64,000 nucleotides of DNA from Acidobacteriota bacterium (lineage in GTDB: Bacteria; Acidobacteriota; Terriglobia; Terriglobales; Acidobacteriaceae). The stretch covers positions 1-64,000 of the forward strand of contig QIAN01000306.1 in NCBI GenBank assembly GCA_003225005.1, written 5' to 3'. Within the stretch, counting starts at the first letter, position 1. The number at the start of each line of letters is the position of its first letter. Positions 1,892-63,220 of the stretch are shown here, piece by piece. The position numbers and the translations under genes were made by a program. The notes beneath the pieces were generated by a model. It did not search any database. It worked only from the letters and a program-made list of their open reading frames with translations, and was not told the DNA's origin.

Positions 1892-3961
1892 TCACATCAT
1901 TGCGATCGGCGGAGCAGGTTCGCTCGGATCGCCGGCCGCGGAGACGGGCAAAAAGATCATCAGAGCTGCCAAGCCAGCAAGCACGATCATTCCTCCAACC
2001 AGATAAGACGGATCGTTGAAGATCTGCGGCGGGTGGTTGGGTGCGCCCCAGGAGGGAACAAACTGCAACCCCGCCCATACCAGGCCCAATAAGGCTTCCC
2101 CAGCGATCAGCCCGGAAGCAACCAGCACTCCGGCATTTTCTACGCGTGCCTTCTGGGCGCTGTTGAATCCACGTCGGTCGGCGACCCAATCACCGACGGA
2201 GCGAATCACTCCGCCCACAAAAATCGCAAAGGTAGTTCCGAATGGCAAATACATTCCCACTGCCACCAGCATAGGACTTTTCACCTGCATCATGATCAGA
2301 GCGAACCCAAAAAGGATTCCCACCACCACCAACGGCCAAGGCATATCGTGACCCACGATGCCCATGGCCAAGGTGGCCATCAGACCGGCTTGCGGCGCCG
2401 GAAGCTCTGCACCGCCAAATCCCACGCCGCCGGCTTTAATGCTGCCCTCGTGCAGCAGCATCAAAGGGAAATACATCACAAGGCTTGCCACGACCACCGC
2501 GATCAGCTCCGCGGCCTGAATCTTCTGAGGTGTGCCTCCTAAGATGTAGCCAACCTTGAAGTCCTGCAAGAGCTCGCCCGCGACGGCTGACGAAACGCAG
2601 ACCACCGCTGCCACTCCCAGAACCGCGGCCACACCTGGACCACCCGAGACTCCCAGCGCCACCATCAGGAGCGCGGCAATCAGCAGCGTCGACAGCGTCA
2701 AGCCGGAAATCGGATTGTTGGACGAGCCGATGAACCCAACCAGATTGCCGGAGACGGTGGCGAAGAAAAATCCAACCAGAATCATCACCACCGCTGCCAG
2801 AATGGCGGGCCACAACAGCCCCGAGATTCTGATGTAAAGCAAACACATCAGCACGAACATCACGGCAATCAAACTGAATACCGTTTTCGAACTCATGTAC
2901 CGTTCCGTGCGTGCGAGCTTGGCTTGCTGGTCGGCCGTCTGGCGCAGGTCCGCGAATGCCTTGCCAATTCCGGCAGTCAGACTCGCGCGCATTCTGAATA
3001 GTGTGTACGCAGCGCCAACCAGCATGCCGCCTACTGCAATGGGGCGCACGATGTATCTCCATACCGCGTCCGCCATCGTCGCCCAATTGTCGGGAGTGTC
3101 GGTCGGAATGTAGGCCCTCAGCTGCGGCCCAAGGAAAAACATCATCAAAGGAACCATCAAACCCCAGGCCAGCACGCTGCCGGCAAACTGGATCGACGCC
3201 AGCCTGAGGCCGATGATGTACCCCACCCCCAGATAAGCCGGACTCACGCTCGGCGCCGCAAAGACGGTGGTTCCTCCCGTGGGTACGATGTGCGTGCTTC
3301 CTGCCGTGCCCAGACGAACCTGGGTGTGTCCCACACTGCCAACGCCAACGTGAAGGTCGGTGTCGGCGGAGAACAGCCCGAATTTTCCCAGGATATACAC
3401 CACGCCGCCAATGCCGATGTTCCAGAACAGATATTTCGCGGCTTGCGCTCCCCGTCGTCCAGCTTTGTGAATCTCCGATGCCGCCAGTGATTCCGGAAAA
3501 GGCAACTCCGGGTCTTCCACCATGCCGCGCCGTACCAGAGAAATGAACAGCACTCCCAGAATGCTGCCCACCATGATCAGTGCCGTGGATTTCCAGTAGG
3601 CGTCAGCAAACCGGAAAGAGGGCCATGCCTTGGCCAGCAGAAACGCCGGAAGCGTAAAAATTGCGCCGGCCGCGACCGACTCCCCAATCGACCCCGCAGT
3701 CCGAGCAATGTTTTCTTCCAGCAGCGACCCCTTCCACGCCCGCATCGCCGCCATGGCAATCACGGCCGCCGGATACGTAGCCGCGATCGTGATACCGGCA
3801 CGCAATCCCAAGTAAGCGTTGGCTGCCCCCAGGACAATCGTCATAAGAAGCCCCAGCAGCACCGCACGCAAAGTAAATTCCTTCATCTCCATGTTCTCGG
3901 GCACGAAGGGGACGTGCTTCTTCGGTCCAGGTCCTGTTTCGGCGGTGAGCGGGTTACTCAT
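1892..3961 (-). CDS. OPT family oligopeptide transporter
   Basis: A 689-residue inner-membrane protein with roughly 14-16 hydrophobic segments. The N-terminus (FVPENMEMKEFTLRAVLLG, then NAYLGLRAGITIAATYPAAV) is the hallmark of prokaryotic OPT transporters. Conserved NPISGLTLSTLL and GGTPQKIQAAELIA segments follow. The family moves oligopeptides, or metal-chelate compounds in some cases, with protons; the substrate here is unknown. Length matches the family (about 650-700). It is the first gene of a leftward run with yggS. Confidence 0.93.
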   Translation of the reverse strand: MSNPLTAETGPGPKKHVPFVPENMEMKEFTLRAVLLGLLMTIVLGAANAYLGLRAGITIAATYPAAVIAMAAMRAWKGSLLEENIARTAGSIGESVAAGAIFTLPAFLLAKAWPSFRFADAYWKSTALIMVGSILGVLFISLVRRGMVEDPELPFPESLAASEIHKAGRRGAQAAKYLFWNIGIGGVVYILGKFGLFSADTDLHVGVGSVGHTQVRLGTAGSTHIVPTGGTTVFAAPSVSPAYLGVGYIIGLRLASIQFAGSVLAWGLMVPLMMFFLGPQLRAYIPTDTPDNWATMADAVWRYIVRPIAVGGMLVGAAYTLFRMRASLTAGIGKAFADLRQTADQQAKLARTERYMSSKTVFSLIAVMFVLMCLLYIRISGLLWPAILAAVVMILVGFFFATVSGNLVGFIGSSNNPISGLTLSTLLIAALLMVALGVSGGPGVAAVLGVAAVVCVSSAVAGELLQDFKVGYILGGTPQKIQAAELIAVVVASLVMYFPLMLLHEGSIKAGGVGFGGAELPAPQAGLMATLAMGIVGHDMPWPLVVVGILFGFALIMMQVKSPMLVAVGMYLPFGTTFAIFVGGVIRSVGDWVADRRGFNSAQKARVENAGVLVASGLIAGEALLGLVWAGLQFVPSWGAPNHPPQIFNDPSYLVGGMIVLAGLAALMIFLPVSAAGDPSEPAPPIAMM

Positions 3962-60312: not shown

Positions 60313-60458
60313 CCGACTGCCTCGGAATTCCTAAAGCGACTGTGTGCGGACCCTGGTTACACCCGCTGCACTGGAAGTGACGCTCCGCGACTGCGCGGCG
60401 CTTGCGACAGGAAAACAGTAGATGTTAGCACAACCATGTAAGGTTGCCGCGCCCGGCC

Positions 60459-60466
60459 AACCACTG
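60459..60466. repeat. Left target-site duplication of the IS1-family element
   Basis: AACCACTG, repeated exactly at 62733-62740. Eight to nine bp is typical for IS1. Confidence 0.8.
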
Positions 60467-60482
60467 GGTCGTGTCCTAATTT
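60467..60482 (+). repeat. Left terminal inverted repeat
   Basis: GGTCGTGTCCTAATTT. It also holds the stop codon (TAG on the minus strand at 60476-60478) of the leftward passenger gene. Confidence 0.85.
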
Positions 60483-61000
60483 CCCGGTCGGCGCATCCAG
60501 TGCAGCTTTCCGTCTGGCCCGAGTTGGGTCGCAAACCGAAATACGCGTTCCCGTTTAACAAGGACGTAATATTTCACAACTACGTCAAGCTCGGCGGAAG
60601 TGAGCAATTGACTGCTTATTACCCTGCCAGCATAAAGGTCGATACCATCGGTCGGCCAAAATACAGCCGCATGCCAATCTTCTGCGTAAGCCTCTCCAGC
60701 TATACGTCCTCCACCGTTCTCTCCCTTTATGTCTATATCCCGCATAAAGAACCTGACAGAAAACAGAGGAACGTATCCATCGTTGACAACGCGGAATGGA
60801 GTTGAAAATGGATCGTTTGGATCAATTGGGGAATCATTTGAAACGGAAAGGCGCGGGAAAAGCGCTATTACCGCGACAATCCCCCCGAGTAGAGTGGCGA
60901 CGCCAAGCGTTACGCCAAGCGTTGATATTCGCGGGGTCTTTCGCCCTGCCTTTTGTCTTTGTTTTTTTGGTTTGGGTTGTTTTATTGCTTTGTTTGACAT
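60476..61000 (-). CDS. Passenger gene: single-pass membrane protein, unknown function
   Basis: A 174-residue protein from MSNKAIKQPKPKKQRQ (ATG 61000). A very basic cytoplasmic start is followed by one membrane helix (about 28-52, TLGVTLGVATLLGGIVAVIALF) and a mostly extracytoplasmic domain with NDPFSTPFRVVNDGYVPLFSVRF, YAEDWHAAVFWPTD and RVFRFATQLGPDGKLHW. I do not recognise it. It points away from the transposase, and its stop lies inside the left terminal repeat, so it belongs to the element. Upstream in-frame starts exist, but those residues are not convincing. Confidence 0.6.
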   Translation of the reverse strand: MSNKAIKQPKPKKQRQKAGRKTPRISTLGVTLGVATLLGGIVAVIALFPRLSVSNDSPIDPNDPFSTPFRVVNDGYVPLFSVRFFMRDIDIKGENGGGRIAGEAYAEDWHAAVFWPTDGIDLYAGRVISSQLLTSAELDVVVKYYVLVKRERVFRFATQLGPDGKLHWMRRPGN

Positions 61001-61120
61001 CGCCCGCCCGTAGGTGAAATTGTAACACAAAAAGTTCTTGACAAGTCTGACATTCTGTAATACATTTAGTGACAGGCAAACGTACTCAGCGCCGAAAAGC
61101 AAACCGCGATAATCGCAGCC

Positions 61121-61900
61121 TTGGCCGAAGGTTCCAGCATTCGCTCGATTGAGCGGATTACGGGCGTTCACCGCGATACGATCATGCGGTTAGGCGTTCG
61201 CGTGGGGCAGGGCTGCACGGCTCTGCTAGATGAGAAAATGCGGAACCTTCCGTGCCGTTTACTCCAGTTCGATGAGGTATGGGGTTTCATCGGTAAGAAA
61301 GAGCGGCATTGCCGCGTGGATGATAATCCTGAATACGGCGATGTCTGGACGTTCTGCGCGATTGATTCTGAGACAAAGCTAGTGCTATCGTTCAAGTGCG
61401 AAAAGCGTAACGCGGAAACGGCGAATGCCTTTGTACAGGACATCGCCAACCGGGTTCGCAATCGCGTGCAAATCTCAACCGATGCATTAGGCGCATACGG
61501 CGAAGCGATTGAGCGAGCCTTCGGAGCGGACGTTGACTACGGCCAGATCGTGAAAGTCTACGTCCACGATTCTGCACACCATCCAGAGCGGCAATACAGT
61601 GCTCGATCATTCGCCTCTGCATACCGTAGGCCAATTGCTGGCAATCCTGAGATGGAGTTAGTCTCTACGAGCCATGTAGAACGCCTCAATGCCACTACTC
61701 GGCTCCATGTGAAACGGCTCTCGCGCCTCACGCTGGCGTTCAGCAAGAAGCTGGATAACTTCAAGGCAGCCGTTGGGCTGCACTTCGCCTATTACAATTT
61801 CGTTCGCCGTCACAATACGCTACGATGCACTCCGGCAATGGCAGCCGGAATTGAGCGGGATTTTTGGACAGTTGGGGATTTACTGGAGGCTACAGTATGA
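61121..61900 (+). CDS. IS1-family DDE transposase
   Basis: A 259-residue protein read from TTG 61121. The N-terminal helix-turn-helix (SIRSIERITGVHRDTIMRLGVRVG) is followed by the DDE core: Asp51 in LLQFDEVWGFIGKKE, Asp121 in ISTDALGAYGE and Glu187 in STSHVERLNATTRLHVKRLSR, with LTLAFSKKLDNF and FAYYNFVRRHNTLR as in IS1. Sequence from 61073 (NVLSAEKQTAIIAAL) is family-like but has no ATG, GTG or TTG, so the true start is unclear; an unusual start codon or a frameshift is possible. It overlaps the next gene by 4 nt (ATGA). Confidence 0.88.
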   Translation: MAEGSSIRSIERITGVHRDTIMRLGVRVGQGCTALLDEKMRNLPCRLLQFDEVWGFIGKKERHCRVDDNPEYGDVWTFCAIDSETKLVLSFKCEKRNAETANAFVQDIANRVRNRVQISTDALGAYGEAIERAFGADVDYGQIVKVYVHDSAHHPERQYSARSFASAYRRPIAGNPEMELVSTSHVERLNATTRLHVKRLSRLTLAFSKKLDNFKAAVGLHFAYYNFVRRHNTLRCTPAMAAGIERDFWTVGDLLEATV

Positions 61901-62235
61901 CGGAGGACGAAAAACGTCAGCAGAAGGCAATGCTGCTACTGGAGCATCAAGAAGCTGAGGAAAATCTGGCCCATCTCGAAGAGAAAGCCAAGAGAGTTTC
62001 CCAAAGGATTATGGCTGTTGCGGAGTGGCTAGAGCGCGCTTCTCAGCGAGGGAGCGACCTAAATCGAGACAAGATTTGGATTCCTAAACTCGGAGATGTA
62101 AACTTTCTGGCCGATCCAGAGTTCGGAATGGCGATGGATTTTGAGGCAGCAAAGACATTATTTCAGGAAGTAAGAGATGCAAAGGATAAGTTTGGCGAAT
62201 TAACGAAGCGCAAACAGTCGCTGGGGCTTAAGTGA
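61897..62235 (+). CDS. Passenger gene: coiled-coil protein, unknown function
   Basis: A 112-residue, charged protein from ATG 61897. Residues about 1-55 are helical and coiled-coil-like (EHQEAEENLAHLEEKAKRVSQ). A middle part (KIWIPKLGDVNFLADPEFG) and a second helix follow. The start overlaps the transposase stop by 4 nt, so translation is coupled, and the end overlaps the next gene by 4 nt. No family is recognised. It is perhaps a transposase accessory factor, inferred only from linkage. Confidence 0.6.
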   Translation: MTEDEKRQQKAMLLLEHQEAEENLAHLEEKAKRVSQRIMAVAEWLERASQRGSDLNRDKIWIPKLGDVNFLADPEFGMAMDFEAAKTLFQEVRDAKDKFGELTKRKQSLGLK

Positions 62236-62546
62236 ACGATTACATCAAAGAACTGCGAGATGTAATTCGGCGGCTACACGGTGTCGAATCAGAACACATT
62301 GAGAGCGTGCCAGTGAAAGAAGTGTTTCAAGGGCAGACGGTTTGGGAAGGCATTGTTGAGGTATTCGACCTAGCAGGACATCCGACGGCGCATCGGGTTT
62401 ACGCATGGGCGCATGAGACGGATGACCCAGAAAAACCGATTCGACACGTCACGGTACTACATCTTCATCCCATCAAATCGGCTCAAGATGCGGTAAGAGC
62501 CGCAATCATGCAAGAGGCGAGGAACCTTGGCACAGAAGAAAGCTAA
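62232..62546 (+). CDS. Passenger gene: 104-residue protein, unknown function
   Basis: Starts at GTG 62232, overlapping the previous stop by 4 nt (GTGA). The sequence is alpha/beta-like (VWEGIVEVFDLAGHPTAHRVYAWAHE, RHVTVLHLHPIKSAQDAVRAAI). No membrane segment or known motif is seen. Its 3' end overlaps the RHH-like gene by 20 nt, so all three form one translation unit with the transposase. Confidence 0.6.
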   Translation: MNDYIKELRDVIRRLHGVESEHIESVPVKEVFQGQTVWEGIVEVFDLAGHPTAHRVYAWAHETDDPEKPIRHVTVLHLHPIKSAQDAVRAAIMQEARNLGTEES

Positions 62547-62709
62547 AATCGGGCGGCCCAAGCTACCCAAAGGCGAAGCAAAGGGCAGGATCGTGCCTGT
62601 GCGCTTCACAGCAGACGATATAAAGGCTATCGCAGCCCAAGCGAAGGCCAGCAAGCAGAACGTTTCGGAATGGATTCGAAGCACGCTGAGGGCCGCTGCC
62701 AATGCCTGA
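62527..62709 (+). CDS. Passenger gene: ribbon-helix-helix-like small protein
   Basis: A 60-residue basic protein from a TTG at 62527. KGRIVPVRFTADDIKAIAAQAKASKQNVSEWIRSTLRAA is close to the RHH/CopG pattern: a beta strand (RIVPVRF), then helix A and helix B with WIRSTL. It may bind DNA and autorepress the element, or be an antitoxin-like protein; no toxin is obvious. It ends 7 nt before the right terminal repeat. Confidence 0.65.
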   Translation: MAQKKAKIGRPKLPKGEAKGRIVPVRFTADDIKAIAAQAKASKQNVSEWIRSTLRAAANA

Positions 62710-62716
62710 GAAATTC

Positions 62717-62732
62717 AAATTAGGACACTACC
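62717..62732 (-). repeat. Right terminal inverted repeat
   Basis: AAATTAGGACACTACC, the reverse complement of the left end with one mismatch (A for C at the fourth position). Confidence 0.85.
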
Positions 62733-62740
62733 AACCACTG
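62733..62740. repeat. Right target-site duplication
   Basis: AACCACTG, identical to 60459-60466. Confidence 0.8.
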
Positions 62741-62935
62741 TGGTGGCGCCGATTAGTTTCTGACCGCCGTGGCGGTGCCGTATCGGGGCAGTTGCTGGAT
62801 CAGGTGCTGACCGACTAGAACGGAATTGTTGATTGTCATTTTTGAATGAAAAGCTACAGAAGGCGGCTTTGAAATTTGTCCGCGGGGGGTTTGACTCAAC
62901 AATCAACCTTCAAAAATCAAACAGTTGATTTGTTG

Positions 62936-63220
62936 TCACTTCTCTTCGTCGATCTTGATGCGCAGCGACTTGAGAAACTTGAGATCCTGTTCGCTGATCT
63001 TGAACTCGGGATTGGTGGAAAGAGTGGTTACGAGAGAAGTCTTGTCAGAGGATTTTTCGCCTTGCTTGCTTACGCCGATCGTGGCTTCGAGTACCAGGAA
63101 AACGTCGTAGCCGCCTTCTTTGATGCGGGAGACAACTTCGGCGATTGCTTCAGAGTCAGAAAGAGATTCGTTTATGGCTTCGCCGAGTTCTTTCATCAGT
63201 TGCTTAAGTTGTTGATCCAC
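62936..63220 (-). CDS. Small conserved acidobacterial protein
   Basis: A 94-residue protein (MDQQLKQLMKELGEAINESLSDSEAIAEVV, then GGYDVFLVLEATIGV). The helix-strand start followed by Lys/Ser-rich and EFKISEQDLKFLKSLRI parts looks like a genuine small protein found next to other Acidobacteriota genes; no function is known to me. It begins 22 nt below the methyltransferase gene on the same strand, so it may share its transcript. Confidence 0.6.
   Translation of the reverse strand: MDQQLKQLMKELGEAINESLSDSEAIAEVVSRIKEGGYDVFLVLEATIGVSKQGEKSSDKTSLVTTLSTNPEFKISEQDLKFLKSLRIKIDEEK

Follow-up and report, generated by a model that had tools for sequence, protein, structure and literature searches.

An IS1-related transposon with partner genes p104 and p60, variable cargo and a probable preference for sites upstream of predicted sigma70-type promoters

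Insertion sequences (ISs) of the IS1 family have ends that start with GG...TG (consensus GGnnnTG), a likeness to the elements studied here, and are usually small, with target duplications of 8-9 bp; IS1A of K-12 is annotated with insA and insB in 768 bp. The ISMhu11 group of IS1, which we take to hold single-frame members of up to ~4.6 kb, may overlap the elements described below; a literature search for its name gave no paper. The yeast retrotransposons Ty1 and Ty3 insert at RNA polymerase III genes (PMC5911963). Their insertions have a fixed place relative to transcription units, upstream of them. Transporter ISs (tISs), in which a transposase and passenger genes lie between short inverted repeats, are a recognised class (PMC7986276, PMC11891212, PMC9330008), and a further source describes a fragmentary IS1 member and merely names others (PMC10017437). 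We analysed 64,000 nucleotides of an Acidobacteriota contig (QIAN01000306.1, positions 1 to 64,000; assembly GCA_003225005.1), hereafter the window, in which an IS1-related element of 2266 bp (60467-62732) contains five frames: p174 on the minus strand, the transposase, p114, p104 and p60. Like tISs, for example the passenger-carrying members of IS1595 and other families, it combines a transposase with passenger genes within inverted repeats. We conclude with good confidence that it is a compact 'transporter IS'-type IS1-related transposon with a core of transposase (tnp), p104 and usually p60, variable cargo, and targeting of sites upstream of promoters. An initial annotation had called it the window's best candidate for an undescribed mobile system. 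Passenger-carrying ISs as a class are already recognised; the literature searched, mostly titles and abstract starts of a limited collection, yielded neither IS1-related elements that have p104 and p60 as partners nor any bacterial transposon that sits at a set distance upstream of sigma70 promoters.

A contig scan for related transposases gave 70 loci, with record labels including Acidobacteria, Verrucomicrobia, Proteobacteria and Nitrospirae. At 47 of them, at least one end lay within one mismatch of the clade's consensus, GGTNGTGTCCTAATTT. Forty two-ended elements of 1692-5494 bp, the window copy included, were chosen among the listed end pairs, with L029 and alternative pairings left out. 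Target duplications were perfect in 36 (34 of 8 bp, two of 9 bp), carried one mismatch in two and were absent from two. Ends, transposase, p104 and p60 thus showed the recurrence at different sites with 8-9-bp duplications that the initial annotation had proposed as support. At L011 (1229-5304), two units bounded by inverted repeats adjoin each other, an 1838-bp one ending at 3066 and a transposase-bearing one starting at 3076.

Insertion sites of these elements were compared by reading offsets outward from the element end, offset 15 lying 7 bp past the 8-bp duplication. Promoters were predicted from sequence and scored as mismatches, out of 12, to TTGACA and TATAAT at 16-18 bp spacing. Forty sites were kept from 48 elements, with duplications of up to one mismatch; L010, L013, L019 and L021 were left out because they lack a duplication of 8 bp (that of L019 and of L021 is 9 bp long), as were L008, L030, L046 and L054 because of a short flank, while L167, L179, L181, L259 and L262, two-ended candidates without a matching 8-bp duplication, were not entered. 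The kept sites include L044 (without p104), L060 and L176 (one-mismatch duplications) and the nested L011. The joint promoter score reached its minimum at offset 15, where 28/40 sites (27/39 without L011) had a promoter with up to five mismatches, distant offsets averaging 1.95, and 18/40 had one with up to four, distant offsets averaging 0.41. At offsets 13, 14, 16 and 17 the counts were 1, 0, 1 and 0 of 40 under the stricter cut-off, and 4, 7, 11 and 3 under the looser, which is one of three reported. The promoter stood in the right flank at 17 sites and in the left at 12, one site having it in both. Motif, offset and spacing were derived from the first loci. The first 32 sites gave 23 matches at up to five mismatches versus 1.62, and eight later-added elements, not used for the offset, gave five versus 0.33. 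In 19 half-sites of newly fetched loci, likewise not used for the offset and overlapping with six of those eight elements, TTGAC stood at offset 15 in four. The hairpin-like appearance of the window site (CCAACCACTGTGGTGG) raised palindromic targets as a candidate, which was rejected since 34 sites gave no dyad signal at the duplication.

A second set came mostly from a sister clade. Transposase homologues (E <= 1e-10) occurred in 129/298 genomes of the order, and those without p104 were commoner than those with it. Twenty lower-scoring places were fetched and joined with 11 earlier loci, and of these 31 a search that accepted only exact duplications and matching ends could place 21, at ~2.0-4.4 kb; because exact duplication was a selection criterion, the duplications of this set are no independent evidence. 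Neither p104 nor p60 matched any of the 31 loci at E <= 1e-10, a strict limit for p60. Most of the loci form a separate branch of an 83-row transposase tree, L219 and L221 lying nearer the p104 clade. This set was not used for the offset either, and 9/21 of its sites had a promoter at offset 15 with up to five mismatches versus 0.73 (8/19 versus 0.63 without L219 and L221). Within each of the two sets counted, no two flanks were alike. Statistically, a sigma70-type promoter begins 7 bp past the duplication in copies of the p104 clade and, more weakly, in the sister clade.

The insertion would thus come to lie upstream of a transcription unit, at about -50 to -43, and that unit may be on either side of the element. 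We postulate that the target of recognition by the transposase complex is promoter DNA itself or, with greater likelihood, promoter-bound RNA polymerase holoenzyme, and that the complex would insert just upstream and leave the gene unbroken. A fixed distance to a two-part promoter fits docking on a promoter complex. That a large clade of bacterial transposons docks on promoter-bound RNA polymerase-sigma70 and inserts cargo, partly of defence type, about 47 bp ahead of the transcription start (-47), with p104 possibly sharpening the docking in its own clade, is a tentative proposal to which we give slightly less than an even chance. Alternatively, the transposase might read a TTGAC half-site in the DNA, for example through an N-terminal helix-turn-helix, and hit promoters through the identity of TTGACA with the -35 box. 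Half-sites with TTGAC at positions 15-19 (up to one mismatch) numbered 19/89, compared with a mean of 1.3 and a maximum of 5 at other offsets, and eight of the 116 half-sites in both sets had a -35 box (up to one mismatch) without a good -10, as such direct reading would allow. Half-site reading does not, however, account for the -10 hexamer, which starts ~37-39 bases from the element end and was enriched at promoter spacing not only beside a good -35 (12/28 half-sites versus 1.7) but also beside a poor one (21/88 versus 5.0, sd 1.85, max 10), and we regard it as rather unlikely.

The second part of the conclusion concerns p104 and p60, which the initial annotation had counted among four passengers. 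Of these four, p174 and p114 proved to be the variable part, whereas p104 and p60 are stable partners of the transposase clade. In the same stretch as the transposase, p104 was present at 51/70 loci, and the 40 two-ended elements included 38 with p104 and 29 with p60. Where p104 lies downstream of the transposase (32 elements), its start and the transposase stop are at most 16 bp apart in 22, mostly with an overlap; the other ten, the window copy included, have an additional 316-790 bp between the two genes. The 83 transposases of the tree come from several phyla, and the p104 label required two changes on it (bootstrap range 1-3) versus 26 when shuffled. A search starting from p104 was positive in 5/149 genomes of the phylum and 26/298 of the order, the own genome being counted in both. 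It found 35 places besides the window copy, of which 33 were fetched with wide flanks and two weak partial ones were not; 18 of the 33 were on contigs from the transposase scan, two were relics in the own genome and 13 were new. A transposase was in the stretch at 27/33, including 9/13 of the new places. The same was true of 5/10 p104 loci in IMG/VR, two of them on one contig, and a plasmid search with p104 gave no match. The own genome has a single full copy of the element; its two p104 relics are on contigs C168 and C499, and C480 carries a short fragment of the transposase. Two p104-like genes of genome G255 (L174 and L175) stand in fetched stretches that lack both a transposase and terminal repeats.

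In our reading, p104 is probably an accessory factor of transposition and p60 probably the repressor of the tnp-p104-p60 operon. The two could instead be ordinary passengers, such as a toxin-antitoxin-like or regulatory pair, outside the transposition machinery. In keeping with this, p60 bears a weak likeness, under the curated cut-offs of Pfam and NCBIfam, to ribbon-helix-helix proteins of the antitoxin and mobilisation types, sister elements exist without p104, and p104 lies to the left, on the opposite strand and apart from the transposase in 6/38 p104 elements. Passengers of this kind would not be expected to need only two changes over the 83 transposases, while other cargo differs from copy to copy, or to start so close to the transposase stop in 22 of the 32 downstream cases; we therefore think an ordinary passenger role doubtful. 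The predicted structure of p104 (AlphaFold2, pLDDT 91.9, pTM 0.83) had no structural match in PDB at E <= 0.001, and its sequence had a sole PDB match, at E 1.5. In a second fold comparison the best match (Z 5.5) was a designed protein, with all others at 4.4 or less, and no function was implied.

Selection after insertion offers another account of the promoter signal, in which elements land broadly and the survivors are those copies that spared a gene and its promoter. Old genomic insertions have already been filtered, and sites just upstream of a promoter may well be harmless; survival of harmless insertions would, however, not fix the distance but spread it over many values, yet the stricter signal is concentrated at one offset, and we consider selection improbable as the explanation. 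A chance arrangement of a degenerate IS beside unrelated genes could draw on the missing start codon of the window transposase, but it is refuted by the recurrence of ends, duplications and gene partners at different sites whose flanks differ within each set, and its probability is negligible.

Several results weigh against a transposon that targets promoters and has p104 at its core. No promoter signal with up to four mismatches was present at 22/40 sites, neighbouring offsets were raised too at up to five (7/40 at offset 14 and 11/40 at offset 16), and the sister set gave just 2/21 versus 0.10 at up to four. The window copy itself has as its best score five mismatches at offset 16, one base off, on the side of a divergent gene that we take to be glgC-like; this weak score was not counted as a match. 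The promoters are predictions, and guidance by RNA polymerase is our suggestion from sequence, as are the roles given to p104, p60, p114 and p174. Because sister elements without p104 show the promoter preference, p104 is not needed for it. Moreover, 6/33 p104 places had no transposase: two in G255, the two own-genome relics, L176, which has both ends, and L177, which has a single end and whose p104 is broken. Enrichment of defence genes in the cargo is suggestive only, because size-matched flanking proteins matched defence families too.

At the window insertion site, the element adjoins a stretch that is conserved in relatives and contains a -10-like sequence. An empty site in a relative, which had been expected to confirm the insertion, was found at the level of the locus, where none of 16 same-genus relatives that share the neighbourhood holds the element; the flanks have diverged too far for a base-by-base comparison. 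In 11 of the 16, the conserved stretches are separated by 120-357 bp. In the remaining five (L100-L104), this intergenic place (window 60432-62940) is filled by 1.6-2.3 kb that lack such ends, so that insertions may be frequent in this neighbourhood, as at a hot spot.

The boundaries of the window element are a left terminal inverted repeat, GGTCGTGTCCTAATTT (60467-60482, plus strand), and a right one, AAATTAGGACACTACC (62717-62732, minus strand), both supported by comparison with relatives. They are flanked by the two copies of the target duplication AACCACTG, which has no strand (60459-60466 and 62733-62740). The 16-bp ends (15/16 complementary), 8-bp duplication and IS1-type DDE transposase of the initial annotation were confirmed from the sequence and a match to PF03400, and its view of one IS1-related mobile unit, larger than classical IS1 and holding other genes, was well founded. 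On the minus strand, p174 (60476-61000) is variable left-arm cargo with a basic N-terminus, one predicted transmembrane helix and an all-beta domain, and its stop codon (60476-60478) falls within the left repeat. All other features are on the plus strand. A promoter-like TTGACA-17-TACATT, read from the sequence (61038-61066), precedes the transposase frame (61082-61900), whose first in-frame start is a TTG at 61121. Most relatives have the transposase ATG (27 of 38 elements readable at that position) where the window has CAG (61073-61075), and lacking the usual ATG the window copy may be weakly active or inactive. The variable frame p114 (61897-62235) lies between the transposase and p104, its start overlapping the transposase stop, and p104 itself (62232-62546) is predicted to fold as a helix, four strands and a helix. 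The end of p104 is overlapped by p60 (62527-62709), a ribbon-helix-helix (NikA-like) protein at 26.7 bits versus a Pfam cut-off of 27, which ends 7 bp short of the right repeat.

The window transposase scored 33.3 bits against PF03400, the Pfam IS1 family, above the cut-off of 24.1, and 64.9 bits against the NCBIfam model NF033558 (IS1), under the cut-off of 100; because of the latter score, we file the element as IS1-related rather than as IS1 proper. In an alignment of 19 transposases (the window and 18 relatives), D64, D134 and E200 were invariant and presumably form the catalytic triad. With the IS1 family the elements share a sequence-related DDE transposase and 8-9-bp target duplications. 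They differ in their size of 1.7-5.5 kb, in the partner genes p104 and p60, in the score under the NCBIfam cut-off, and in a transposase that is one uninterrupted frame in the window and the 18 aligned relatives, where classical IS1 has the two frames insA and insB. An ISXO2-like domain, the name under which we presume the IS1595 transposase domain is known, was absent among the Pfam and NCBIfam matches of the window transposase at E <= 1, an indirect check. Two close transposases, at L039 and L040, are on contigs labelled Acidobacteriaceae and Proteobacteria and fall within an otherwise proteobacterial branch of the tree, a pattern that reflects either recent transfer or a misbinned contig.

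The tIS arrangement of passengers inside IS ends was observed directly, with variable frames within verified ends at, for example, L038 and L046. In the window, the variable frames are p114 and p174, and neither was found at any of the 70 transposase loci. Relatives of p114 occurred in seven other genomes, none of the seven loci having such terminal repeats, so that the recurrence expected of all the carried genes failed for p114. It was partly seen for p174, relatives of which were found in 16 other genomes (298 searched, E <= 0.01; nine loci fetched) and in three places with these ends: L240, laid out like the window beside a transposase 71% identical, and L236 (1444-2068) and L241 (1134-1735), where a p174-like frame lies in ~600-bp units with the same terminal repeats and without a transposase. 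The L236 unit has a perfect 8-bp duplication and a broken p174-like frame. Both small units are likely non-autonomous cargo carriers, and given its recurrence at the three loci p174 is recurring cargo. We infer that p174 and p114 of the window play no part in transposition.

No match to p174 was found in IMG/VR, or by sequence in PDB at E <= 1. Its predicted structure (pLDDT 77.2) has a helix at residues 27-46 followed mostly by strands. A likeness to Kir channels (best Foldseek E 4e-4) was rejected as a mere common beta-sandwich because the best rows had TM-scores of ~0.3-0.4 and an rmsd above 12. To the left of the transposase, many elements of Acidobacteria have a longest minus-strand frame whose product is predicted to contain a transmembrane helix (the prediction for L015 is under threshold), and in eight (L001, L006, L008, L015, L017, L018, L026 and L068) the stop codon of this frame is within the left repeat. 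Many of these proteins are connected by BLASTP (best E 2e-23). The choice of strand rests on this similarity between elements, because an overlapping plus-strand frame is about equally long in several. A left-arm profile was built from 21 proteins, which score well by construction, with eight dropped, p174 among them; because p174 matched the profile at a non-significant E of 0.27, we do not treat it and the left-arm proteins as a single family.

Other cargo differed from copy to copy, unlike p104, and no family could be assigned to the majority of the frames tested. Among those assigned, L038 carries a GmrSD/HEC-06-type restriction enzyme, L042 a Schlafen AlbA_2 protein, L054 a cation-efflux protein and L033 a Bro-N protein that also matches BstA, though more weakly. 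The P63C protein of L039 has relatives in L041 and L058. A unit without p104, bounded by inverted repeats and a duplication (L046:27-5520), holds a SmaI-type restriction enzyme and methyltransferase pair. For 38 cargo proteins of the p104 set, PADLOC matches traced to L038 and L046, among the matches listed (25/88). Pfam matches in the sister set were P63C and Clp-protease, in three proteins each, and its PADLOC matches included candidate defence families. At E below 1e-20, PADLOC matched the 44 sister-set cargo proteins to RmrA (two members), RmrT, PDC-M19A, PDC-M19B and PD-Lambda-2_B (25/37 families listed), and 44 size-matched flanking proteins, chosen from 109, to PDC-S07 and mad3, these counts being members per family and not distinct proteins. 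Variable genes would be carried along with the core, and would sometimes be defence genes.

The likeness to Ty1 and Ty3 is one of working principle, a fixed place upstream of transcription units, and implies no membership, as those are yeast retrotransposons with unrelated enzymes that follow RNA polymerase III. If the proposed targeting is true, the elements would be a bacterial counterpart of them. Promoter-upstream insertion, if confirmed, would spare host genes through the choice of target, could land cargo next to host promoters, and would provide a tool to insert DNA in front of promoters. Two protein families, that of p104 and that of the left-arm membrane proteins, gain a testable context, and small IS-like elements are seen to carry single genes, some of them defence-type, across several phyla.

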